DNA from: Streptacidiphilus pinicola | GTDB lineage: Bacteria; Actinomycetota; Actinomycetes; Streptomycetales; Streptomycetaceae | DNA: 64,000 nt | Direction of reading: 5' to 3' | Assembly (NCBI RefSeq): GCF_003258295.1 | Contig: NZ_QKYN01000053.1 | Location: forward strand, 5,538 to 69,537 | Part shown: one piece after another, positions 1-58,879 of the stretch | Position numbering within the stretch: the first letter of the stretch is position 1 | Layout of the letters: each line of letters begins with the position of its first letter | The notes under the pieces: model-generated | The model's database searches: none | The model's input: the letters and a program-made list of their open reading frames with translations, nothing else | Told to the model about the DNA's origin: nothing | Position numbers and translations under genes: made by a program

Positions 1-58
1 AGTTGTGGACCATGATGGAATCCGTCTTGACGACGGGCTTCTTGACGATCTTCAGCAT
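1..58 (-). CDS. mccA: Microcin C-like precursor peptide, second copy (cut by window edge)
   Basis: Reading leftward from ATG at 58, the frame gives MLKIVKKPVVKTDSIMVHN, identical to the copy at 103-162. The last Asn codon occupies 2-4 and base 1 supplies the first T of the stop, so only two bases of the stop codon are missing. One base differs from the other copy and is silent (GAT for GAC, Asp13), so the repeat is kept at protein level. A GGAGG ribosome site sits at 67-71, with 8 bases between it and the ATG. A C-terminal Asn is what MccB acts on in microcin C7. Repeat spacing is 104 bp and more copies may lie left of the window. The call rests on the neighbouring mccB and mccS-like genes. 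Confidence 0.8.
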   Translation of the reverse strand, partial: MLKIVKKPVVKTDSIMVHN

Positions 59-102
59 CTGGTTCACCTCCTTTCGGAGTGTGCTTGGCCTCGGACCGCT
101 TC

Positions 103-162
103 TCAGTTGTGGACCATGATGGAGTCCGTCTTGACGACGGGCTTCTTGACGATCTTCAGCAT
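103..162 (-). CDS. mccA: Microcin C-like precursor peptide, first copy
   Basis: Twenty codons encode MLKIVKKPVVKTDSIMVHN and a TGA stop. The gene starts 14 bases after the mccS-like stop and has a strong GGGAGG ribosome site at 171-176, so it is the third cistron of the operon. In the microcin C family an MccB enzyme adenylates or cytidylates the C-terminal Asn of a short ribosomal peptide. The rest of the peptide is a Trojan-horse carrier that sensitive cells import and degrade, releasing an aspartyl-tRNA synthetase inhibitor. This peptide is longer (19 residues) and more basic (four Lys) than the 7-residue E. coli MccA. It is far too short for ordinary gene callers. Product and target are inferred from the family, not seen. 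Confidence 0.85.
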   Translation of the reverse strand: MLKIVKKPVVKTDSIMVHN

Positions 163-176
163 CTGGTTCACCTCCC

Positions 177-908
177 TCAGAATTCGATTGCGCTCTTGAA
201 GCCGGCGATGAGGGCAAAGTTCAGGACTTTGATCACGCAGCCGACCTCGTTGAACCCGGCGTCGCGCAACAGTTCCTCGTTCTCGGAGACCGAGAGAGGA
301 ATGAGGACGTTTTCGATGTCCTCGCGCTTGCGCGCTATCTCCAGGTCCGAATAACCCTGCTCGCGCTTGAACTCATGGTGTATCGAAATGAGGCGCCGGG
401 TCAGGGACGAGTCGTCTTCGATCACCTTCTCCATGAGGACGAGCACCCCTCCGGGCCTGACGGCCCGACTCAGGGCGGTCAGGATGCTCTTGCGCCGGAG
501 CGGCCTGATGAACTGGAGGGTGAGATTGAGGAGCACAACATCGGCGGGCGGAAACTCGACCACTTCGCAGACATCCGCGCAGTAGAGGTCGACCCTCGTT
601 TCCGGCTCGAATGGCGCCAGCCGCTGGCGTGCCTGCTCGATCATGGGCGCGGAGTTGTCGTAGCCGATGAGGTGGGTTCCGGGGAACTTCCTGGCCAGGA
701 CCTCCATGGACGTTCCCGTCGCGCATCCGAGGTCGAGGACTGTTCCCACTGGGCCGGGAATGCTCCGAACAATGCGGTCCAGGCTCTCCTGCATGATGTC
801 GTAGCCGGGCACGCTGCGCTGGACCATGTCATCGAATACCGCTGCCACGCGACTGTTGAAGGAGAAGTCCGCAGGCACATGCTTTTCTAGGTAGATTGTG
901 TCTAGCAT
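177..908 (-). CDS. mccS: CmoA-like carboxy-SAM synthase (MccS-type)
   Basis: The 243-residue class I methyltransferase fold closely follows CmoA: FDDMVQRSVPGY at 25-36, SAM-binding LDLGCATG at 58-65, NLTLQFI near 128 and the ENVLIPLSVSENEELLRDAGF-type C-terminal region. CmoA converts SAM and prephenate to carboxy-S-adenosylmethionine. In the Bacillus amyloliquefaciens and Yersinia pseudotuberculosis mcc loci a CmoA homologue (MccS) supplies carboxy-SAM so that the MccB C-terminal domain can carboxymethylate the cytosine of the peptide-nucleotide. Here it lies directly behind an MccB with such a C-terminal domain (12 bases between genes, ribosome site GGAG before ATG 908), which supports the same role. 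A housekeeping CmoA for tRNA would not be expected here beside mccA genes. Confidence 0.85.
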   Translation of the reverse strand: MLDTIYLEKHVPADFSFNSRVAAVFDDMVQRSVPGYDIMQESLDRIVRSIPGPVGTVLDLGCATGTSMEVLARKFPGTHLIGYDNSAPMIEQARQRLAPFEPETRVDLYCADVCEVVEFPPADVVLLNLTLQFIRPLRRKSILTALSRAVRPGGVLVLMEKVIEDDSSLTRRLISIHHEFKREQGYSDLEIARKREDIENVLIPLSVSENEELLRDAGFNEVGCVIKVLNFALIAGFKSAIEF

Positions 909-920
909 TTCAGCGCTCCA

Positions 921-2765
921 CTACTTCGTTTCCGGAAGCATCAGGTCGAGCAGAAGGAAGTACGGGACCCGCATCGACTTCTCCAACAGGATCTCGGGGG
1001 CGTCGGCCTGGACCGTCGGCGCAGGCTCGTGGTATCCGAGCAGGGCAAACCCGGCGGAGAGGAACGCGTTGACGTAGGTGGTCGCGGTCCGCTTGAAGGT
1101 GACGGTCCGCTCCACGGTCGTCTCCCCGTGCGCATCCTCACGCGACTTCGCTATCGGACCTTCCGAGAAGTAGTGGCCGGTGACGGAGAAGTCGTCGTAG
1201 CGCCACCGGCGTCCGTCCCACTTCTTCAGCCAGCCCCCGCTGTCCTTGAAGGGATGGGGAACGGCGATGATCGCCCGCCCACCGGGCCTGAGTGAGCCTC
1301 GGATGGCGTCGATCGCGCCGTCGAGGTCCTCGACCCAGTCCAGGACGTTGAGGCAGAGCACCAGGTCGTTGGTCTGGCTGCGCGGGATCTCGTCGATGCC
1401 GGCGAGGCGGTACTCGATCCCTGCGTCCGCGGTCCGCTCGTTCGCGGTCCGCAGCATCGCCGGCTCGATGTCCACAGCGGTGACCCCGTAGCCGAGCGCG
1501 CCGAGCATCCTGGAGTTCTCGCCGGTCCCGCATCCGATGTCCAGAGCCCGCTGGCCGTCGCCGGCAGCGGACACGAGACGGGCTATCAGCGGATCGAGGA
1601 GCAGCGAGTTGAAGGACGCCTCCGCCCGCTCCGCGGCGTACTGCTCCGCGATCGCCGGCAGCTGGTCCAGCGAAGCCGCAGGAACCGGCGTCGCGGACAC
1701 CGGCCCCGCCGAGGAGCAGGTGGGGCAGTCGGCCCTGCGCTGGTAGTGCTCCTCCGTGGCCTCATAGGTGGCGAAGTCGATGGCCTGCCTGGTGCCCATC
1801 GTCCGGGTCGGGAGCCCGGTCAGGTACCGGATCGCCTCATTGACCTGGACGGACGCGACGTAGAAGTTCAACGGGCCGAAGCTGGGAGCCTGCCGCTTGG
1901 GATTGAGCTGGCGGAGCGAGGAGGCGTCACCGCGCAACTCGCCGAAGATGGCGTGCTCGTTCCGGCTGCATTCGTAGCACGCCGTCTCACCCGGGACTAC
2001 CAGGGGCCCGACCACGGCGTACCCCTCGATGTACCCGGCCGTGGAGTACGGGATCCCGAGCGCCACCGCCTTTGACGAGATCCATTCATGAATCTCACGG
2101 GGCGTATCGGCGGAGAGCACGATGAAATCGCAGTCAGCGAAGTAGTTCGAGACCAGGTCCGCGTTGTCGAACCCGAGCGGAACGGGCGTCACCTTCACTT
2201 CCGAGTTGATTTCTCGCAGCCTCGCCGCGGCCACCTCGACCTTGAGTTGGCCCACCGCCCCCTCGGAGTAGAGGGTCTGGCGGGTCAGGTTGGACAACTC
2301 CACGGTGTCCCCGTCGGAGATCACCATGTGCCCCACGCCCGCCGCGGCGAGCAGCGTTGCGACGTTGCTCCCGATCCCACCCGTTCCGATGAGGCCCACA
2401 GTGGACTGCGAAAGCTTGTGCTGGGCGTCCGCCGGGTCGATGCCCTGCGACTGGAAGTAGAGGTGATGCCTGGAGTACCTGGAGTCCGGATCAGGGAGCG
2501 CCCGGACAAGGAATCCGGCCTCCCGGAGCTCCTCGGTCACGGTGGCCGAATCCTCCGCACCCAGGCCGCGGTCCATGAGCCAGCGCTGCGCCTCGGCGAG
2601 TGTCCGCTCCCCGCTGAGGAAGGCGATGAAGTCAGGCAAGTATTCCGGGAAGTCCTCGATCACCGCGGCGTGAGGAGGCAGCCCACCCACGTGGATATCG
2701 CCGTCAACCTGCCACGCTGACAGGTAGGGAGCGAACTGGAATACCTGTGCTGGGTCCTGCGACAC
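921..2765 (-). CDS. mccB: MccB-like E1 adenylating enzyme fused to C-terminal methyltransferase
   Basis: GTG 2765 is chosen because GGAGG lies six bases upstream; longer frames to 2831 lack a site. The 614-residue protein has an N-terminal part (about 1-100) resembling a peptide-recognition winged-helix domain. A ThiF/MoeB-type adenylation domain follows, with GTGGIGSN near 127-134 and two zinc-binding CxxC pairs near 263/266 and 347/350. A C-terminal SAM methyltransferase domain (about 375-614) has DIGCGTG near 409-415. In microcin C systems MccB joins a nucleotide to the C-terminal Asn of MccA through an N-P bond; the fused domain transfers a carboxymethyl group in the cytidine variants. 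It is the first gene of mccB-mccS-mccA-mccA. Cytidylation rather than adenylation is inferred from the domain fusion and mccS. Confidence 0.87.
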   Translation of the reverse strand: MSQDPAQVFQFAPYLSAWQVDGDIHVGGLPPHAAVIEDFPEYLPDFIAFLSGERTLAEAQRWLMDRGLGAEDSATVTEELREAGFLVRALPDPDSRYSRHHLYFQSQGIDPADAQHKLSQSTVGLIGTGGIGSNVATLLAAAGVGHMVISDGDTVELSNLTRQTLYSEGAVGQLKVEVAAARLREINSEVKVTPVPLGFDNADLVSNYFADCDFIVLSADTPREIHEWISSKAVALGIPYSTAGYIEGYAVVGPLVVPGETACYECSRNEHAIFGELRGDASSLRQLNPKRQAPSFGPLNFYVASVQVNEAIRYLTGLPTRTMGTRQAIDFATYEATEEHYQRRADCPTCSSAGPVSATPVPAASLDQLPAIAEQYAAERAEASFNSLLLDPLIARLVSAAGDGQRALDIGCGTGENSRMLGALGYGVTAVDIEPAMLRTANERTADAGIEYRLAGIDEIPRSQTNDLVLCLNVLDWVEDLDGAIDAIRGSLRPGGRAIIAVPHPFKDSGGWLKKWDGRRWRYDDFSVTGHYFSEGPIAKSREDAHGETTVERTVTFKRTATTYVNAFLSAGFALLGYHEPAPTVQADAPEILLEKSMRVPYFLLLDLMLPETK

Positions 2766-3251: not shown

Positions 3252-3906
3252 CTACACCTTCCGCAGCACGGCGACGACCGTGCCGAGGATCAGGGCGCCC
3301 TTCGCCGGGATGGGCTCGTAGTTGCCGTTGGCGGGCACGAGCCAGGAGCCGCCGCGGCCGCCGTGGTGGAGCCGCTTGACGGTGGCTTCGGTCTCGTCGA
3401 CCAGGGCGGCGACGATGTCGCCGTGGTCGGCGGCCTGGGTGGCGCGGACGACGACGGTGTCGCCGTCGAGGATCCGCGCGCCGGTCATCGAGTCCCCACA
3501 CACCTTGAGTGCGAAGAACGGGCCGGCCGCTGGCAACAGCGTCGGCGGGACAGGGAGCAACTCCTCGACGTGCTCTTCGGCGGTGATGGGGACGCCGGCC
3601 GCGATCTGCCCCACCAAGGGCACCAGTACCGGCGCGGTCGGCTCGCCCTCCTCGGCCGCGAGCGCGGTGTCGTCGCCGCCCATAAGGTCGGTGAGGACGT
3701 AGACGCGGGGGCGGTGGGGGTCGCGTTGCAGGTAGCCGGCGCGCTCGAGGGGCCGGCCCGCGGCCACGCAGGTACCTGCGGATCGTAAGGCGGCTGACCC
3801 CGTACCAGGAGGCCTTGCTACAGATGACGTTGCGGCGCAGCACGGCCGGGTCGGTCTTCGGCTCGCCGCGGGTCGCGTCGTGCAACGCGATGGCGACGAG
3901 GAACAC
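3252..3906 (-). pseudogene. LexA-like S24 repressor, frameshifted
   Basis: The C-terminal two thirds encode a LexA/S24 self-cleaving domain: VGQIAAGVPI carries the Ala-Gly cleavage pair, CGDSM the catalytic Ser, and ATVKRL the Lys, ending in ALILGTVVAVLRKV. The matching N-terminal half (MFLVAIALHDATRGE, then HTH-like YGVSRLTIRRYLR) lies in another frame, and the join falls near 3755-3765 (RYLRGRG against GRPLERAGYLQRD). Real relatives read RRYLxxLERAGYLQRD, so a small indel has split the gene. A sequencing error would look the same. Whether it still makes a protein is doubtful. Confidence 0.65.
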
Positions 3907-4025
3907 GAGCTGCTCACGTGAGGTAGTCGGGATCGGCTACGCCCAGCAGGCCCGCTGCCGGGTCGGGTGGCTGCAAGTCATGTTCTGATGCGAGCGCGTC
4001 ACAACCAGAAGGCCTTTGGGACGGA

Positions 4026-7311: not shown

Positions 7312-8406
7312 TCAGCGGCCGGGGAGCTCCGGACGCTGCAACGCGCCGCCGCCGTCCAGCGCGCCCAGGAACGACTCGATCGACGCCGACACCACGTAGA
7401 TGCCCTTGCGCCCGTAGTCGGCCTCCTGCAGGCCCACGTTCATGTCCGACACCCACGCTGAGGCCTGTGGCCCCACACGGTACGTCGACTGCTTCCCGGC
7501 CTCCACGATGCCCATACGCGCCGTCAGGAACTCCTGGGCGAGAGCGATCTGCTCCTCCACGTCCGTCGGGGTGTGGCGAAGCACCGCGTCGAGATAGTGG
7601 CTGATGGCCAGCTTCGGGTTGCCGGTGCTGCGCCGGTCCGCGTTGATCCGGGTCTTCAGCAAGGTGAGTATCTCTGGCACGATCCGGAAGCCGTGCAGCT
7701 TCCAACTGCGGGACTGGATCGTGGCACTGGCGAAGCTCTCCAGCACCGCCTGGTGGGACCAGTGCGTCTGGCCCGCGCTGCGGCGCACCGCGGACGGCGG
7801 CCGTCTCCGAGGGGCCACCTTGGGCGCGGGTTCCACCACGGCCGGCACGGCCGGCGCATCTGCGGCCTGCGGCGCCATCGCGGCCGCCGGGGCCTCCGCG
7901 ATGGCGGGCGAGGGAAGCTCCTCTGCCGGCGCCGGCGCGCGGGGCGCGGTGACTGGGGCGACGCGGCTGGGCTCCGGGGACAACTCGGGTACGGGCGGCG
8001 CGGTTTGCGGCCTCGGCGCAACCGGTGCGACCGGTGCGACCGTTGCGACCGTCGCCTCGGGGACGGTCACGGCCGCGACGGGGGCCGGCTTCGCCACTGG
8101 CTGCGCCGCGGGCTCCTCGAGGACCGCCGGGGCCGCCACTGCAACCACGGGAGCGAGACTCGGCCCCGTGTCCTGCCCGCCCCCGTCCTGCTCGCCCGGG
8201 GCGCGCTCCGGGGCGGGGGCCCGCACAGGCGGCGCGGCGGCCGCCGTGTCAACTTCCGCGGCGGCGAAGGTCGATCCCGCGCTCGCGGCCTCCCGGGCGC
8301 CCGGGGCGGGCCCGGACGCGATGAAGGAGGCCGCGACCACCTCGTCGGCGTTCGCGACGACGTTCGCGAAGACGTTGGGGCGCTTCTTGGGACGACGCTC
8401 AGACAC
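7312..8406 (-). CDS. ParB-like partition partner with long Ala/Pro linker
   Basis: GTG 8406 overlaps the parA stop by eight bases, so the two are translationally coupled. The 364-residue protein begins with a basic segment (SERRPKKRPNVFANVV), runs through about 200 residues rich in Ala, Pro and Val, and ends in a folded domain (HWSHQAVLESFASATIQSR, HGFRIVPEILTLLKTRINADR) likely to be the DNA-binding part. No ParB/Srx nuclease-like domain is visible, so this is not a chromosomal ParB. In plasmids with this ParA type the partner is a small centromere-binding protein. Role inferred from operon position. Confidence 0.6.
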   Translation of the reverse strand: MSERRPKKRPNVFANVVANADEVVAASFIASGPAPGAREAASAGSTFAAAEVDTAAAAPPVRAPAPERAPGEQDGGGQDTGPSLAPVVAVAAPAVLEEPAAQPVAKPAPVAAVTVPEATVATVAPVAPVAPRPQTAPPVPELSPEPSRVAPVTAPRAPAPAEELPSPAIAEAPAAAMAPQAADAPAVPAVVEPAPKVAPRRRPPSAVRRSAGQTHWSHQAVLESFASATIQSRSWKLHGFRIVPEILTLLKTRINADRRSTGNPKLAISHYLDAVLRHTPTDVEEQIALAQEFLTARMGIVEAGKQSTYRVGPQASAWVSDMNVGLQEADYGRKGIYVVSASIESFLGALDGGGALQRPELPGR

Positions 8407-9289
8407 CGATCTCCTCCGTCGCCGGGGCTGGCGCCGGGGCGATCCGCCACTGGTCCACGGCGCTGTCCATCCGTACCAGCATCTCCTGCAGCAAGGCGGC
8501 GTACTGCTGGCCTGGGGCATGGTTGGTGTGCGTCAGCACGGCCGGGATACCCATCCCGTAGGCCTTCGAGATGAACTCACTGGTCCGGATGTCCGCGACG
8601 AAGGGCAGCAGGCCGGCGTCCACGACACCGGAACGCACCTCGATCTCCTGCTCCTTCCACTTCGACGGCGGGCTGGTCTTGTTCAAGATCACACCGAGGT
8701 ACTGCGGGTTGCACTCCCCCTCGGTGTTCTTGCTGACGAACTTCACCGAACCCGCCAGCGTGACCGCACCCTTGACCGTGGCGTACTCCGGATAGCACAG
8801 CGTCACGATCCAGTCGCCCGCCGCCCAGCCCACGGCTGCCAGCGCGTTGATCGCCGGCGGCACATCCACGATCGCGTAGTCGTACTGGTCGGCCACCGTC
8901 GCCAGCATGCGGCGAAGTATCGGCGTCGCCTTGTACCCCTCGGCCCCGACCAGGTTCTGCGCCGTGCTCATCGAGCCCTCATTGCACGCCAGCAGGTGCA
9001 GCGCCCCGCCGTACTCCTGGAACTCACCCATCAGGTGGCTGCGATCGAAGATCAGGTCATTGAGGTCCAGCTCGATGCCCTGCAACCGCGCCTGCAGCGC
9101 CCAGCCCAGCGAGCGCCCCGACTCGGAGATCGGCAGGTTCACCCCCACCGCGGTCCCGGCCTGCGCCTGGGGGTCGAGATCCACGATGAGGACCCGCTTG
9201 CCCATCAGCGCCAAGCCGGCGGCCATGTTCACGGTGGTGGTGGTCTTGCCGACCCCACCCTTCTGGTTCGCCACCGTGATGACTCTCAT
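8399..9289 (-). CDS. parA: ParA-family partition ATPase
   Basis: The 296-residue protein starts MRVITVANQKGGVGKTTT, with the deviant Walker A (KGGVGKT) at 10-16, Walker A' VLIVDLDPQAQ near 33-43, and Walker B YAIVDVPPA near 135. This is the ParA/Soj ATPase that segregates plasmids and chromosomes by cycling on nucleoid DNA. GGGAGGAG lies upstream of ATG 9289. No N-terminal HTH is present, so it resembles the short plasmid type whose operon is repressed by the partner protein. It heads a two-gene operon with the ParB-like gene. Confidence 0.9.
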   Translation of the reverse strand: MRVITVANQKGGVGKTTTTVNMAAGLALMGKRVLIVDLDPQAQAGTAVGVNLPISESGRSLGWALQARLQGIELDLNDLIFDRSHLMGEFQEYGGALHLLACNEGSMSTAQNLVGAEGYKATPILRRMLATVADQYDYAIVDVPPAINALAAVGWAAGDWIVTLCYPEYATVKGAVTLAGSVKFVSKNTEGECNPQYLGVILNKTSPPSKWKEQEIEVRSGVVDAGLLPFVADIRTSEFISKAYGMGIPAVLTHTNHAPGQQYAALLQEMLVRMDSAVDQWRIAPAPAPATEEIGV

Positions 9290-9499
9290 GACCTGCGCTC
9301 CTCCCATACCCCTGGCTCGGCCGACGCAAGAACAATCCACACCCGAACGATCCGCCACCGGCTGTTTCTTGTCCGGTTTTGTCGCACTTGAGTGCTGCCA
9401 GGTTGGCCGCACTCGCGAGATCATTGTTCTCTTGTCAGTCGATTTTTCAGGCATGAAGATAACAGGTGGGGCCACCGTTAGGTGGGACGCCTCGCGCAA

Positions 9500-32632: not shown

Positions 32633-34335
32633 CGAGGGTCTGACAGGAGTTCCGTGAAACGCCAGGTCAGGGCCGTGCATGCAGGATCGTTTCCTTATGG
32701 GATCACCTCCTCATGGAGCCTGGTGCCATCGAGCAGGTGCTGTTTCACGGAGCCGTTGTTGAGCTGAAGCAGCTGAGCATCTGCGCTGATCTGGTCACCG
32801 CGGAGATGACGGCTCGGGGCGATCCGCCCCCGTGCCCGGATTGCTCCGTCCGCGCGAAGCGCGTCCACTCCTGGTACTGGCGCACTCTCGCTGAACGGCC
32901 CTTGATCGGCAGGCGGCTGACGATACGCCTTTGCGTGCGGCGCTTCTTCTGCGACCGTCGTCAGTGTCGTCGGCTGACTTTCGTCGAGCAGGTCCAGGGC
33001 CTGAGCGAGCGCCACCGCCGGTCCGCCCTCGGGTTGAAGCTGTGGCTGCAGGCGATCGCCACCGAGCTCGGAGGTCGCCCGGGGGAACGCCTCTGCCGGA
33101 GGATCAATCTGCAGGCCAGCCGCACCCAGTTGCTGGGACTCCTGCTGGCACCGGAGGTCCAACAGCAGGCCCCCCGCGTTCTGGGCGTCGACGAGTTCGC
33201 GTTCCGCAGGGGCAAGACCTACGGCACTGTGCTCGTGGACATCGAGGCCGGCCGTGTCGTAGACGTGCTGCCCGACCGCACCTCGGAGACGTTCGCGGAC
33301 TGGCTGCGGAGCCACCCCGGGGTTGAGGTCGTCTGCCGGGACCGGGCCACCGCCTACACGAAGGCGATCAAGGAAGCCGCACCGCATGCCACCGAGGTCG
33401 CCGACCGTTGGCACCTCTTGCAGAACCTGGCCGCCGCAGTCGAGAAGACCTGCCACCAGCACCGCTCCTGCCTGCGCAAGAGCATCGAACAGCACGAGCC
33501 GCCCGAACCGCCGGCCATCGATCTGCCGCCGCTTCAACTGCCCCGCACCCCGATCGTCGAGCGCACCCGCGACCGCTATGCGGATGTGCACCGACTGCTG
33601 GACGAGAAATGGACGATCAGCGCGATCGCCCGCCAACTCGGCCTGGATCGCAAGACGATCCGACATTTCAGGGAGACCAGCCTGGACGAACTCCTGGCCC
33701 GAGCCTGCGACCGCAGCCCCAACGGCGTCCTGGACCCTTTCAAGCCGTACCTGAACAGCCGCTTCGTCGCCGAATGCACCACCAGCCGGCAGCTGTTCAC
33801 CGAGATCTGCGCTCGCGGCTACCACGGCGGTTACTCGACTCTCAACGCTTACCTGGCCAAGCTCCGCACCGGCACCGCCGAACCCGTCCGCGCAGAGATC
33901 CCCAGCCCCCGCCGCATCACCTCCTGGATCATGCGACCTCGCGAGACACTCAGCGAACGGGACGAAGAGCGCCTGCTCGACGTCAAGATCGCCTGCCCAG
34001 ACATCGCCCGTGTCTGCGACCTCGCGAGGGTCTTCCGTGACTTGGTCGTCAACCGTCGCGGGCGACTCCTGCCGGACTGGATCCGCCAGGCCGAACAAGA
34101 CGCCCCCGCACCGATGAGCTCGTTCGCCGGCTTCCTGCGCCAGGACCTCGACGCCGTCACCGCTGGCCTCACCCTCGAATGGAGCTCGGGCAAGGTCGAA
34201 GGGCACGTCAACCGGATCAAGACCCTCAAGCGAGCAATGTACGGACGGGCCACCTTCCGACTACTGCGGACCCGGATCCTCACCGGTGCGCAGCCCCTGG
34301 CTGGTCACGGAATCCAGCCGGCTGTCACTCGCTCA
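32633..34335 (+). mobile_element. ISL3-family insertion sequence
   Basis: The element contains one transposase. Imperfect inverted ends can be aligned: the left end near 32635-32668 and the complement of 34293-34332 share TGACAG and TTCCGTGA at matching positions. No clear target duplication is visible. The right end falls inside the coding frame of the gene at 34305-35039, showing that it has replaced that gene's original C-terminus. Confidence 0.6.
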
Positions 34336-34389
34336 GGCACCGAGAAATCGGTCCGGCAGTCAGGACAGTCGGCCCGTCCGAACACGTAA
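32713..34389 (+). CDS. ISL3-family transposase
   Basis: 558 residues from ATG 32713. An N-terminal zinc ribbon (PPPCPDCS and FFCDRRQCRRLTF) is followed by an HTH, then the ISL3 DDE core: VLGVDEFAFRRGKTYGTVLVD (first Asp), VCRDRATAYTKAIKEAAP (second Asp), and EWSSGKVEGHVNRIKTLKRAMYG (Glu). All catalytic positions are present, so it may be active. The last ~25 residues read past the inverted repeat into flanking DNA, so the original stop may have been lost. Confidence 0.88.
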   Translation: MEPGAIEQVLFHGAVVELKQLSICADLVTAEMTARGDPPPCPDCSVRAKRVHSWYWRTLAERPLIGRRLTIRLCVRRFFCDRRQCRRLTFVEQVQGLSERHRRSALGLKLWLQAIATELGGRPGERLCRRINLQASRTQLLGLLLAPEVQQQAPRVLGVDEFAFRRGKTYGTVLVDIEAGRVVDVLPDRTSETFADWLRSHPGVEVVCRDRATAYTKAIKEAAPHATEVADRWHLLQNLAAAVEKTCHQHRSCLRKSIEQHEPPEPPAIDLPPLQLPRTPIVERTRDRYADVHRLLDEKWTISAIARQLGLDRKTIRHFRETSLDELLARACDRSPNGVLDPFKPYLNSRFVAECTTSRQLFTEICARGYHGGYSTLNAYLAKLRTGTAEPVRAEIPSPRRITSWIMRPRETLSERDEERLLDVKIACPDIARVCDLARVFRDLVVNRRGRLLPDWIRQAEQDAPAPMSSFAGFLRQDLDAVTAGLTLEWSSGKVEGHVNRIKTLKRAMYGRATFRLLRTRILTGAQPLAGHGIQPAVTRSGTEKSVRQSGQSARPNT

Positions 34390-51966: not shown

Positions 51967-53148
51967 ATGCTGTCACTGGATTCGAGAGTCCGCGTCAAGA
52001 GGATCTACCCGGTTACCCGGATCGACGACATCCAGTTCCGCATCGGCGCCCGATTCGGGCCGTCCATGGAAGTGACCGACCCGAAACAGCACCTTTGGAC
52101 CCTCGTGGCCGCGCTCAACGGCGAATCGCCACTGAACGAGGTGATCCGACGGGTCTGCGAATCCTTCCCGGAGCTCACGGTCGAGGGCGTCATCGACGCG
52201 GTGCAGTACCTCGACCGGCAAGGCGTCCTGGAGGACGCGATCGCCACGCCCTACGACGAGCGCGGCGAACTGGATCGCTACCTCGGGAACGTCGACTACC
52301 TCAGCTCCTACGCCACGGCCTCCGAGCGACGAGGCGCGGAGCAGGACCGGCTGCGTGACGCACGCGTGGTCCTGTTCGGCCTCGGCGGCGAGGGATCCCT
52401 CGCTCTTCCGCTGCTGCTCGCGACCGGATTCGGCAGCATCACGGCAGTGGACCACGGCCGGGTCGAGCGGACCGACCTGAACCGGCAGTTCCTGCACAAG
52501 GAGAGCGACGTCGGGGCGCTGCGGACGGAGGTGGCCGCGCGCCTTGCGGCCGAGACCAACCCCCATGTCCCCTTCACCGCGGTGCAGCAGCAGATCCGGT
52601 CCGCGGACGAGGTGGCCGAGCTCGTGCACGGAGCCGACATCGCGATTGGCGCCATCGACGAACGTCCCTTGCTGACACAGCGATACCTCAACGCGGGCTG
52701 TGTGGCCGAAGGCGTGCCCTACGTCTGCGGTGGCTCCTTCATCACCAGCGGGGGGATGTTCTCTGTCCTTCCCGGGACGACCGGATGCCTCGAATGCCTC
52801 CACCGCCACCACATGCGCATGGACCCGCGCTATCTCAGCCGGCTGGAGGCTTCGGCGAGCATCGACACCGCCCACGCCTCAGCCGTTCCCGCTTTCGCCC
52901 CCCACGTGGCCCTGATCGCATCTCTGGTCGTCGCCGAAGCCGTCCGCATGGTCACCCGGCACGCCGAGCCACTGGCGCTCGGACAGCAGATCGACATCCA
53001 CTACGAGACCGGCCGTCTCGAGCGCCTCACCACATGGGACCGCGACCCGCAGGGGTGTCCCGTCTGCGGCGACGGCGTCGACGGACCCGTGCTCGACAAG
53101 CTCAGGGGCATGGCGCCGGGCGACTGGCTCTCAGAGGCGGTTGCGTGA
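51967..53148 (+). CDS. Second MccB-like E1-type adenylating enzyme (ThiF family)
   Basis: 393 residues from ATG 51967 (AAGGAAG upstream). The N-terminal ~100 residues resemble a peptide-recognition winged helix. The ThiF/MoeB adenylation domain follows, with VVLFGLGGEGSLA near 134-146, DLNRQF near 170-175, IGAIDERPL near 227-235, and zinc-binding CxxC pairs near 274/277 and 364/367. The layout parallels the N-terminal two thirds of the mccB product but lacks a methyltransferase. Enzymes of this class modify or activate the C-terminus of peptides or carry out leader-guided reactions in RiPP pathways. The small peptides in this region are possible substrates, but no Asn-ended peptide gene was found nearby. 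Confidence 0.72.
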   Translation: MLSLDSRVRVKRIYPVTRIDDIQFRIGARFGPSMEVTDPKQHLWTLVAALNGESPLNEVIRRVCESFPELTVEGVIDAVQYLDRQGVLEDAIATPYDERGELDRYLGNVDYLSSYATASERRGAEQDRLRDARVVLFGLGGEGSLALPLLLATGFGSITAVDHGRVERTDLNRQFLHKESDVGALRTEVAARLAAETNPHVPFTAVQQQIRSADEVAELVHGADIAIGAIDERPLLTQRYLNAGCVAEGVPYVCGGSFITSGGMFSVLPGTTGCLECLHRHHMRMDPRYLSRLEASASIDTAHASAVPAFAPHVALIASLVVAEAVRMVTRHAEPLALGQQIDIHYETGRLERLTTWDRDPQGCPVCGDGVDGPVLDKLRGMAPGDWLSEAVA

Positions 53149-55854: not shown

Positions 55855-56670
55855 TCAGCGGCGACGCATCCCCGTCGCGAGCTCGCCCGCGAGCTCGCGA
55901 AGTGCCTTGAGTCCCGCCGCCGTGTCCGTGCCTGCGTCCAGCAGGCACTGGACGAACGCCGAGCCGACGATGACACCGTCGGCGAAGGCGGCCACCTCGG
56001 CGGCCTGTTCGGCGTCCGAGACACCCAGGCCCACACAGACCGGCAGGTCGGTCAGAAGGCGGGCACGGCGGACGAGATCCGCCGCCTGAGCGCCCACCTT
56101 GGCCCGGGCACCGGTCACACCCATGAGCGAAGCGGCGTAGACGAAACCGGATCCGGCCGCCGTGATGGTCGCAAGACGCTCGTTCTGACTGCTCGGCGCG
56201 ACCACGAAGACCGTCGCCAGGCCGTGCGCCTTCGCCGCCGTACGCCAGGCGAGGGATTCCTCGACCGGCAGGTCCGGCAGGATGCAGCCCGCGCCACCGG
56301 CAGCCGCGAGGTCCGCGGCGAAGCGTTCGGCCCCGTACCGGTCCACGGGATTCCAGTAGGTCATGCACAGCACCGGCGCGCCGGTGCGATCCCGCACCTC
56401 CCGGACCGTACGCAGCACGTCCACGATGCGCAGGCCGCCGCGCAGCGCGATGTCGTCGGCGGCCTGGATGACGGGACCGTCGAGTACCGGGTCGGAGTGG
56501 GGCAGGCCCACTTCGACGATGTCGCAGCCGCCTTCAACGAGCGCGGCTATCGCGTCGATTCCGCTTTCGAGGTCGGGAAAGCCCGCGGGGAGGTAGCCGA
56601 TCAGAGCGGCGCGGTCCTGCGCCCGTGCCTGGGCCAGTGCGCCTGCCAGGCTCGCTATGCCGTCGGTCAC
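55855..56670 (-). CDS. trpA: Tryptophan synthase alpha chain
   Basis: 271 residues from ATG 56670, overlapping the trpB stop by four bases. Hallmarks: [10 protein letters not shown], the catalytic Glu in [48 protein letters not shown] and [20 protein letters not shown]. It cleaves indole-3-glycerol phosphate to indole for TrpB. Last gene of a lmbU-sORF-trpC-trpB-trpA operon inside a specialised-metabolite cluster, implying a dedicated tryptophan supply. Confidence 0.92.
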
Positions 56671-57962
56671 CGTACGTTCCCCTCTCCGGGGGTGACACGG
56701 TCCGGGGTCCGCCCGCGTGCCTCGCCCTCCGCCTGGTCCTGGTCGTAGAGCCCGAAGTAGCGTGCCGCCGTGTCCATGTCCTTGTCCCCGCGGCCGGACA
56801 GGTTCACCAGCACCACCCCATCCGGTCCCAACTCCCGTCCGACATCCAGGGCGCCGGCCAGCGCGTGCGCGCTCTCGATCGCCGCGATGATGCCTTCGGT
56901 GCGGGCCAGCAGCCGCAACGCCTGCATCGCCTGGTCGTCCGTCACCGCGCGGTACTCGGCGCGTCCGGCGTCCTTGAGATAGGCGTGCTCCGGGCCGATG
57001 CCCGGATAGTCGAGGCCCGCGGAGATCGAGTAGGTGTCGGTGATCTGGCCGTCCTCGTCCTGCAGCACGTAGGACCGGGAGCCGTGCAGGATCCCCGGCT
57101 CGCCGACGCTCAACGTCGCTGCGTGCCGGCCCTCCTCCGGCCCGAGGCCTCCGGGCTCGCAGCCGACCAGCCGGACCGACGGGTCGTCGAGAAAGGCGTG
57201 GAACAGCCCGATGGCGTTCGATCCGCCGCCGACGCAGGCGACTGCGGCGTCCGGCAGGCGCCCCACCCGCTCCAGCAGCTGGCCGCGGGCCTCGACACCG
57301 ATGACGCGGTGCAGGTCGCGGACCATCGCAGGGAACGGGTGCGGCCCGGCGACCGTGCCGAAGAGGTAGTGCGTCGAGTCGACGTTGGCGACCCAGTCGC
57401 GGAAGGCCTCGTTGATGGCGTCCTTCAGGGTGCGGCTGCCGGAAGCCACCGCGATCACCTCGGCGCCCAGGATGCGCATGCGGGCGACGTTGAGTGCCTG
57501 CCGCCGGGTGTCGATCTCACCCATATAGATGGTGCAGTCGAGACCGAACAGCGCACACGCGGTGGCGGTCGCGACGCCGTGCTGGCCGGCGCCGGTCTCT
57601 GCGATCACGCGCGTCTTGCCCATGCGCTTGGTGAGCAGCGCCTGGCCCAGGACGTTGTTGATCTTGTGTGAGCCGGTGTGGTTCAAGTCCTCGCGCTTGA
57701 GGAACACCCGTGCCCCGCCCGCCTGCCGGGCGAACCTCGGTACCTCGGTCATCGCGGACGGCCGACCGGTGTAGTGCCGCAGCAGCTCACCCAGCTCGGC
57801 GGCGAAGGACGGGTCGTCCTTCGCCTTGTCGAACTCGACGGCAACTTCCTCCACCGCGGCGACCAGCGCCTCGGGGATGAACCTGCCACCGAACGCGCCG
57901 AAGTAGCCCTCGGCGCTCGGGACTCGACCGGTCCGGTCGGGGACGAAGAAGGCCGGTGCCAT
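56667..57962 (-). CDS. trpB: Tryptophan synthase beta chain
   Basis: 431 residues from ATG 57962. Signature segments: [29 protein letters not shown] (PLP Lys), [22 protein letters not shown] and [11 protein letters not shown]. Condenses indole with serine. The gap to trpC is 23 bases and it overlaps trpA by four. Full length with intact catalytic residues. Confidence 0.94.
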
Positions 57963-57985
57963 CCGACGTGTGCTCCTTGAGTAGC

Positions 57986-58795
57986 TCAGCTGCTTGGTTG
58001 CCGGCGTGCGGCACGGGAGCCGACGGAGACCAGTTCGGTCACCGCGGCGCGCGCGTCATCACCGGTGACCAGGGACTCGCCGACGAGAACGGCGTCGGCG
58101 CCGTGTTCGGCGTAGGCGATGACGTCCTGCGGCCCGCGCACACCCGACTCGGCGACCTTCACGATGTGCCGCGGGATGACCGGGGCGACCCGCGCGAACG
58201 TGCCGCGGTCGACTTCCAGCGTCCTGAGATTGCGGGCGTTCACCCCGATGATGCTCGCGCCGGCCGCGACCGCCCGGGCGGCCTCCTCCTGGTCGTGCAC
58301 CTCCACCAGCGCGCTCAACCCGATGGTCCGCGCCTCCTCCAGGAGCGACACCAGCGCCTGCTGCTCCAGCGCCGCCACGATCAGCAGGGCGAGGTCGGCG
58401 CCGTACGCTCGCGCCTCCCACAACTGGTAGGGCGTCACGATGAAGTCCTTGCGCAGCACGGGGACATCGACCTTGGCACGCACCGCCTCGAGGTCGGCCA
58501 GGGAACCGCCGAAGCGCCGCCCCTCGGTGAGGACCGAGATGACCGCGGCGCCGCCCGCCTCGTACTGGGCCGCGAGTGCGGCCGGGTCCGGGATCGCGGC
58601 GAGCGCGCCCTTGGACGGGCTGGACCGCTTGACCTCGCAGATCGCGGCGACACCCGCGCCGCGCAGCGCCGCCAGACCGTCCCGCGGCCGGGAGGCACGT
58701 GCGGCCCGGTCCTGCAGCTCCGCCAGACTGACGCGGGACTGCCGCTCGGCGAGGTCCTCGCGGACTCCGTCGATGATGTCGTCGAGCACGCTCAC
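57986..58795 (-). CDS. trpC: Indole-3-glycerol phosphate synthase
   Basis: 269 residues from GTG 58795, the usual Streptomyces start ([19 protein letters not shown]), with GAAAGG upstream. Key parts: [13 protein letters not shown] (active-site Lys), [36 protein letters not shown] and [13 protein letters not shown] longer frame to 58855 is less likely. The operon lacks other trp genes here, so chorismate-derived precursor must come from elsewhere. Confidence 0.92.
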
Positions 58796-58879
58796 AGGAG
58801 CGGACACCTTTCGGAAGCGGGGGTGGTCGGGGACGTGCGCCGCGCCTGGGGCCAACCGTGCGTGGCCCCGGACGACCCG

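Follow-up and report, generated by a model that had tools for sequence, protein, structure and literature searches.

Microcin C of Escherichia coli is a peptidyl-adenylate (PMC9239234), while the characterised relatives with a fused MccB make carboxymethylated cytidylates (PMC9239234, PMC12250964). For the microcin C analogue of Bacillus amyloliquefaciens, a carboxymethyl-cytidine compound, only four key genes are described, and these provide a 19-residue precursor, an MccB-carboxymethyltransferase fusion and MccS (PMC12250964). Actinobacterial clusters with a fused MccB, MccS, an exporter and MccX are reported from Nocardia vaccinii and Mycobacteroides abscessus, both of which have the S51 peptidase gene mccG, and N. 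vaccinii, which has mccD and mccE1 as well, encodes an MccB that cytidylates and carboxymethylates its 21-residue peptide in vitro (PMC9239234). In this study we analysed a stretch of 64,000 nucleotides from Streptacidiphilus pinicola (the window; bases from 5538 on of contig NZ_QKYN01000053.1, which totals 115,444 bases), at the start of which lies a cluster of this type. We consider it very probable that this compact, operon-like run, which encodes an MccB-type nucleotidyltransferase-methyltransferase, a CmoA/MccS-type enzyme and at least three tandem 19-residue peptides ending in asparagine, specifies a peptide with a predicted carboxymethyl-cytidylate tag, likely a Trojan-horse antibiotic.

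The cluster shares with E. coli microcin C7 an MccB-type enzyme, an Asn-ended precursor, an MFS exporter and a GNAT domain (the immunity domain in MccE), whereas microcin C7 has a 7-residue peptide and adenosine monophosphate (AMP) and, to our knowledge, neither a fused methyltransferase nor MccS. In comparison to the B. amyloliquefaciens analogue, which is reportedly the carboxymethyl-cytidine compound of Serebryakova 2016, the 19-residue precursor, the fusion and MccS are common to both, while the window adds tandem mccA genes placed after mccS, an MccX-like gene and a GNAT gene. In comparison to the N. vaccinii and M. abscessus clusters, it has a GNAT gene and falls in a separate clade, and none of mccD (not searched by name), mccE1 and mccG was seen.

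The mccB-methyltransferase gene (window 921..2765, minus strand) encodes a protein of 614 amino acids composed of an E1/ThiF nucleotidyltransferase, or MccB, part (1704..2489, minus strand, residues 93-354) and a C-terminal S-adenosylmethionine (SAM)-type methyltransferase (921..1670, minus strand, residues 366-614) that is predicted to be a carboxymethyltransferase. A GTG with GGAGG six bases upstream was chosen as its start; the mechanical frame starts at a TTG at 2831. The results showed that the best match of the E1 part among solved structures was E. coli MccB (5e-44), in comparison to 4e-23 for MoeB and 1e-20 for ThiF, and that the best 24 matches of a fold search with the structure model (mean predicted local distance difference test score 86.0, predicted template modelling score 0.58) were all MccB. 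A non-MccB ThiF enzyme (MoeB, ThiF or TOMM) was rejected, being weaker at both the sequence and the fold level. Conservation was evaluated on 25 fused proteins, hand-picked from the 120 listed of 122 homologue matches, and R162, K175, D220, C263, C266 and C347 of the E1 part, together with H504, P505, K507 and D508 of the methyltransferase, were identical in all 25, and C350 in 21. By analogy with E1/MccB enzymes, we take cysteines 263, 266, 347 and 350 to be zinc ligands and R162, K175 and D220 to be catalytic. Aligned end to end, the fusion is 40-41% identical to a protein named from B. amyloliquefaciens (P0022) and 39-40% to one named from N. vaccinii (P0040).

The next gene, mccS (177..908, minus strand, 243 aa), belongs to the carboxy-SAM synthase (CmoA) family TIGR00740, against which it scored 210 bits (cut-off 193); of the four matches to this model in the genome, no other reaches the cut-off. 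Solved CmoA-family proteins align to its residues 13-238. Methyltransf_9, which we take to be the family of CmoB, the tRNA partner of CmoA, had no match above the Pfam cut-off in the genome (best 22.9 versus 23.8), and the candidate explanation of MccS as a stray tRNA-modification gene was rejected for this reason, a role in tRNA wobble modification thus being unlikely. The cluster is assigned to the carboxymethyl branch because the fused methyltransferase stands together with the genome's only above-cut-off CmoA-family protein. An earlier interpretation made from the letters alone, hereafter the sequence-only reading, had proposed alignment of the E1 domain as one test of MccB identity and had taken the fusion and MccS together as marks of this branch; the alignments and fold matches above agree with the former and the genome-wide search supports the latter.

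The mccA genes follow mccS as a tandem array. Copy 1 (103..162, minus strand) encodes the 19-residue peptide MLKIVKKPVVKTDSIMVHN and ends in a TGA stop, and copy 2 (1..58, minus strand) encodes the same 19 residues, with its stop codon inside an assembly gap; strong ribosome-binding sites, GGGAGGTGA and AGGAGGTGA respectively, precede them. The gap comprises 99 N, has its end just outside the window and separates copies 2 and 3. For copy 3 (L008 5395-5438, minus strand, where L008 is the first 8500 bases of the contig and window coordinates equal L008 coordinates minus 5537), the last 13 residues and the stop are visible, the start and the ribosome-binding site being in the gap. Copies 1 and 2 repeat with a period of 104 bp and lie 44 bases apart, and a single, synonymous base difference (GAC/GAT) was observed among the copies over the comparable stretch. 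When the whole genome was searched with the 39-base 3' stretch of the repeat, tolerating 3 mismatches, the 3 matches obtained all fell in the array, and the reversed control gave 0. The assembly is interrupted within the repeat, which makes the copy number of at least three a minimum. The peptide contains four lysines and no arginine, ends in asparagine and resembles other mccA peptides. In the microcin C literature, within the accessible parts of open-licence papers, no account of tandem identical mccA genes was found, which is weak evidence of absence; H. minutum is described with two different mccA genes and two mccB genes (PMC7157772). Folding also identified a perfect 10-bp hairpin after the last mccA (L008 5356-5384, minus strand; -30.9 kcal/mol for a 66-nt stretch, z -2.6, with 3 of 200 shuffles folding as well). 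It was not listed by the consensus terminator scan and carries no clear U run, and it is a suggestion only that it could terminate some transcripts or shield their 3' end.

To place the precursor among others, the surroundings of E1 genes were scanned for short frames that end in Asn and have a Shine-Dalgarno-like motif. Of the 73 loci listed, 6 include under 1 kb of sequence ahead of the gene, where a peptide could be missed. Nineteen-residue MLK..N peptides were found at 8 of these loci (7 distinct places), every one among the 16 E1 loci with the best scores. One place is the window itself, three are in Streptomyces-family genomes (MLKIIKVVAARAVSGRAFN) and three in Arthrobacter/Paenarthrobacter records (MLKLKRL[AT]KRRSKLNFVFN). 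Outside the window the peptide is single and lies 75-290 bases upstream of the called mccB frame; at one streptomycete locus (L097) this frame is over-extended, and peptide and mccB are separated by an MFS frame. MccB is unfused at the Streptomyces-family loci (L097, L098, L090, L091), where the single peptide lies upstream, and also at the Arthrobacter-type loci (L009, L010, L015), where mccB follows the precursor.

The order of genes on the minus strand is mccB-methyltransferase, mccS, the mccA array, a 201-aa MccX-like protein, MFS and GNAT, with gaps of 12, 14, 59, 5 and 9 bases between coding frames. The operon extends about 2.7 kb past the window edge on the same contig (L008 2853-5537) and includes there, all on the minus strand, the open frame of the MccX-like protein (L008 4730-5335), a Pfam-assigned MFS transporter (L008 3420-4724; its ATG was picked from several in-frame candidates) and, 9 bases after it as the last gene, the GNAT acetyltransferase (L008 2853-3410). 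The sequence-only reading had described an E1-methyltransferase fusion, a CmoA-like gene and tandem Asn-ended 19-residue peptides closely spaced on one strand, and this is confirmed by the gaps of 12 and 14 bases in the window and by the array, of which two genes lie in the window and a third is partly visible across the gap. The interval 1..2765 that it gave for the whole locus proved too short, since copy 3 and the MccX-like, MFS and GNAT genes have to be added. The proposal of an actinobacterial microcin C-type locus is supported; its actinobacterial side is not new, such clusters being known from N. vaccinii and M. abscessus (PMC9239234); both the chemistry and the actinobacterial occurrence are already known (PMC9239234; PMC12250964 for Bacillus).

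The GNAT protein likely confers immunity; MccE2 is reported to acetylate the processed compound (PMC9239234). A homologue of 567 aa (P0081) combines an E1 domain with a GNAT domain, and thus a nucleotidyltransferase with a likely immunity function in one protein, and the existence of this fusion favours a connection between GNAT-type domains and MccB enzymes. MccE1-type pyridoxal phosphate (PLP) decarboxylases (PF02784) had 5 matches in the genome and 0 on the contig of the cluster, and no further methyltransferase was found among the 7 scanned L008 proteins, no search for MccD by name being included. Directly after the GNAT gene, on the opposite strand, lies a short fragment of an ABC-transporter ATPase (L008 2506-2877). 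On the other side, element- or plasmid-like genes adjoin the cluster, namely an S24/LexA-like gene (window 3252-3917), a ParA-type ATPase (8399-9499) and an ISL3 transposase (32713-34389).

The 201-aa MccX-like protein has the sandwich fold of AglA, a member of the YqcI/YcgG haem-thiolate guanidine N-hydroxylases (PMC12866846). Its Cys12 is invariant in 11 of 11 sequences and, by alignment only, falls on the cysteine of the [FY]xC motif in all 7 canonical YqcI/YcgG members compared, which is position 44 of AglA (Cys44, the haem ligand); identity to AglA-type enzymes is about 15%. The protein itself has no Pfam match. With PF08892 (cut-off 27 bits), P0121 (up to E 10) and P0122 gave no match, P0123 and P0124 gave 19.4 and 15.7 bits, and the relatives L096 and P0131 exceeded the cut-off with 33.4 and 30.2 bits. 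A profile of the 201-aa family ranked AglA only second among solved structures (E 0.14), after a chance match (0.074). Immunity proteins of the S51 (MccG) or HIT (MccH) type were considered and rejected, based on the missing Pfam match and the AglA fold. The MccX-like protein is predicted to bind haem through Cys12, and it may oxygenate a nitrogen of the product. Characterised YqcI/YcgG members hydroxylate guanidine nitrogens (PMC12866846), and because the window peptide contains no arginine, the substrate must be a non-guanidine nitrogen or the role another one. We propose only tentatively, as an idea with a small though real chance of being correct, that the cluster represents a further actinobacterial branch of peptide-nucleotide antibiotics in which tandem identical mccA genes within the operon raise the precursor supply and MccX, as a haem-thiolate enzyme, N-oxygenates the peptide-nucleotide, most likely at a lysine amine or the cytosine amidine because arginine is lacking.

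To see how the fusion relates to others, a FastTree phylogeny was built from the first 400 residues of 104 proteins (local support only, long branches flagged). The window MccB belongs there to a six-member clade of fused proteins (P0001-P0006, support 99) that is distinct from both the N. vaccinii/M. abscessus group and the Bacillus group; the named members, Streptomyces sp. NPDC058286 and NPDC048521, show 58% identity. At E 1e-60 the fusion was confined to its own genome, both among 14 genomes of the genus and in a phylum sample of 396, and mccB was found in 3 of 394 family genomes (its own and two matching over the E1 part only) and in 3 of 392 Streptomyces genomes (one fused, G931, and two over the E1 part only); at E 1e-100 it was found in 1 of 393 Streptomyces genomes (G931 again), in a draw largely overlapping the previous one. 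The closest relatives (P0003-P0006) are not among the genomes sampled for Streptomycetaceae and Streptomyces. The fused mccB gene is rare. Plasmid records gave no match at 1e-40 and viral contigs gave none, and a search of genome contigs, dominated by general ThiF genes, gave at least 80 loci. The G931 cluster (L096) also contains a YqcI/YcgG-type protein, with about 190 extra N-terminal residues relative to the window MccX, an MFS gene, a fused MccB, MccS and, downstream of mccB, an Asn-ended peptide; it differs in that one mccA of 22 residues was found, just after mccB, and in the presence of an S51 peptidase, a methyltransferase and a PLP decarboxylase. Its fused mccB lies near both chromosome ends (C1 17474-19267, L092, and 10355594-10357387, L095), the two copies probably being in terminal inverted repeats. 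In a Bartonella sp. DB5-6 record (L011 9001-11992), MccB-like, MccS-like and MccX-like matches are ordered as in the window cluster, and a stop codon interrupts the MccB stretch when it is read from its first base.

Among the alternatives, that of an acquired cluster now decaying or silent survives best, and we regard it as improbable. The patchy distribution, the adjoining ABC-transporter fragment and the G+C content of the array (0.539) and of mccS (0.607), in comparison to 0.689 for the window beyond 2765, would fit it, whereas all frames not cut by the gap are open, the catalytic residues are conserved in the alignment and the lone base change between mccA copies is synonymous. Slightly less probable still is that a cluster of the microcin C type attaches AMP or another nucleotide and that its fused domain is a plain methyltransferase or acts on the peptide; the E. 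coli product sets a precedent (PMC9239234) and alignment does not reveal the choice of nucleotide, but the characterised fused relatives yield carboxymethyl cytidylates (PMC9239234, PMC12250964) and the operon carries its own CmoA-type protein. That the E1 enzyme modifies the C terminus in another way (thioester, lactam, indolylamide or the like) is very improbable, for although ThiF-type enzymes perform several reactions (PMC12150305, PMC12250964), this E1 domain is nearest to MccB in sequence and fold and the peptide has the terminal Asn that MccA precursors reportedly share.

For the carboxymethyl-cytidylate product, MccB would activate the C-terminal Asn and join it via a P-N bond, likely to cytidine monophosphate (CMP), MccS would convert SAM and prephenate to carboxy-SAM, and the fused domain would transfer the carboxymethyl group to the cytosine. 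The repeated mccA genes with their strong ribosome-binding sites would supply far more substrate than enzyme, the MFS protein would export the product, peptidases of the target cell would release an isoasparaginyl-nucleotide that blocks aspartyl-tRNA synthetase, and the GNAT protein would acetylate any warhead that escapes in the producer. Several points weigh against this reading. The nucleotide, production, export, toxicity and target are what we infer from sequence; Pfam assigns the transporter to MFS only, its specificity as exporter being predicted; the best solved relatives of the GNAT protein are other acetyltransferases (1e-9), with MccE a weak sixth of seven (6.9e-5); a scan of the locus for sigma-70-type promoters, which did not cover other promoter types, found none; and mccA copies above three would be hidden by the assembly gap. 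In Yersinia, the processed product is reported at m/z 553.163 (PMC9239234), and the calculated mass of isoAsn-CMP with carboxymethyl and aminopropyl groups is 553.165, or 569.160 with an extra oxygen; because this leaves no room for the oxygen, hydroxylation of the warhead by MccX is disfavoured there.

The window also contains a second ThiF/E1-type protein of 393 aa (51967-53148, plus strand; 29% identity to the MccB part), preceded by an 87-aa frame. Downstream of it on the other strand (55855-58855) are TrpA, a TrpB-like PLP enzyme and indole-glycerol-phosphate synthase, and this region is possibly another peptide- or Trp-related cluster.

In general, the analysis extends the small family of aspartyl-tRNA synthetase-blocking antibiotics by a separate clade whose layout is unusual. 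Through gene dosage, the tandem array would meet the demand for peptide in large excess over the enzyme, and the 19-mer and the two-domain enzyme are ready reagents. The link of MccX to haem-thiolate N-hydroxylases turns a gene without an assigned function in the studied clusters into a concrete enzymatic question.

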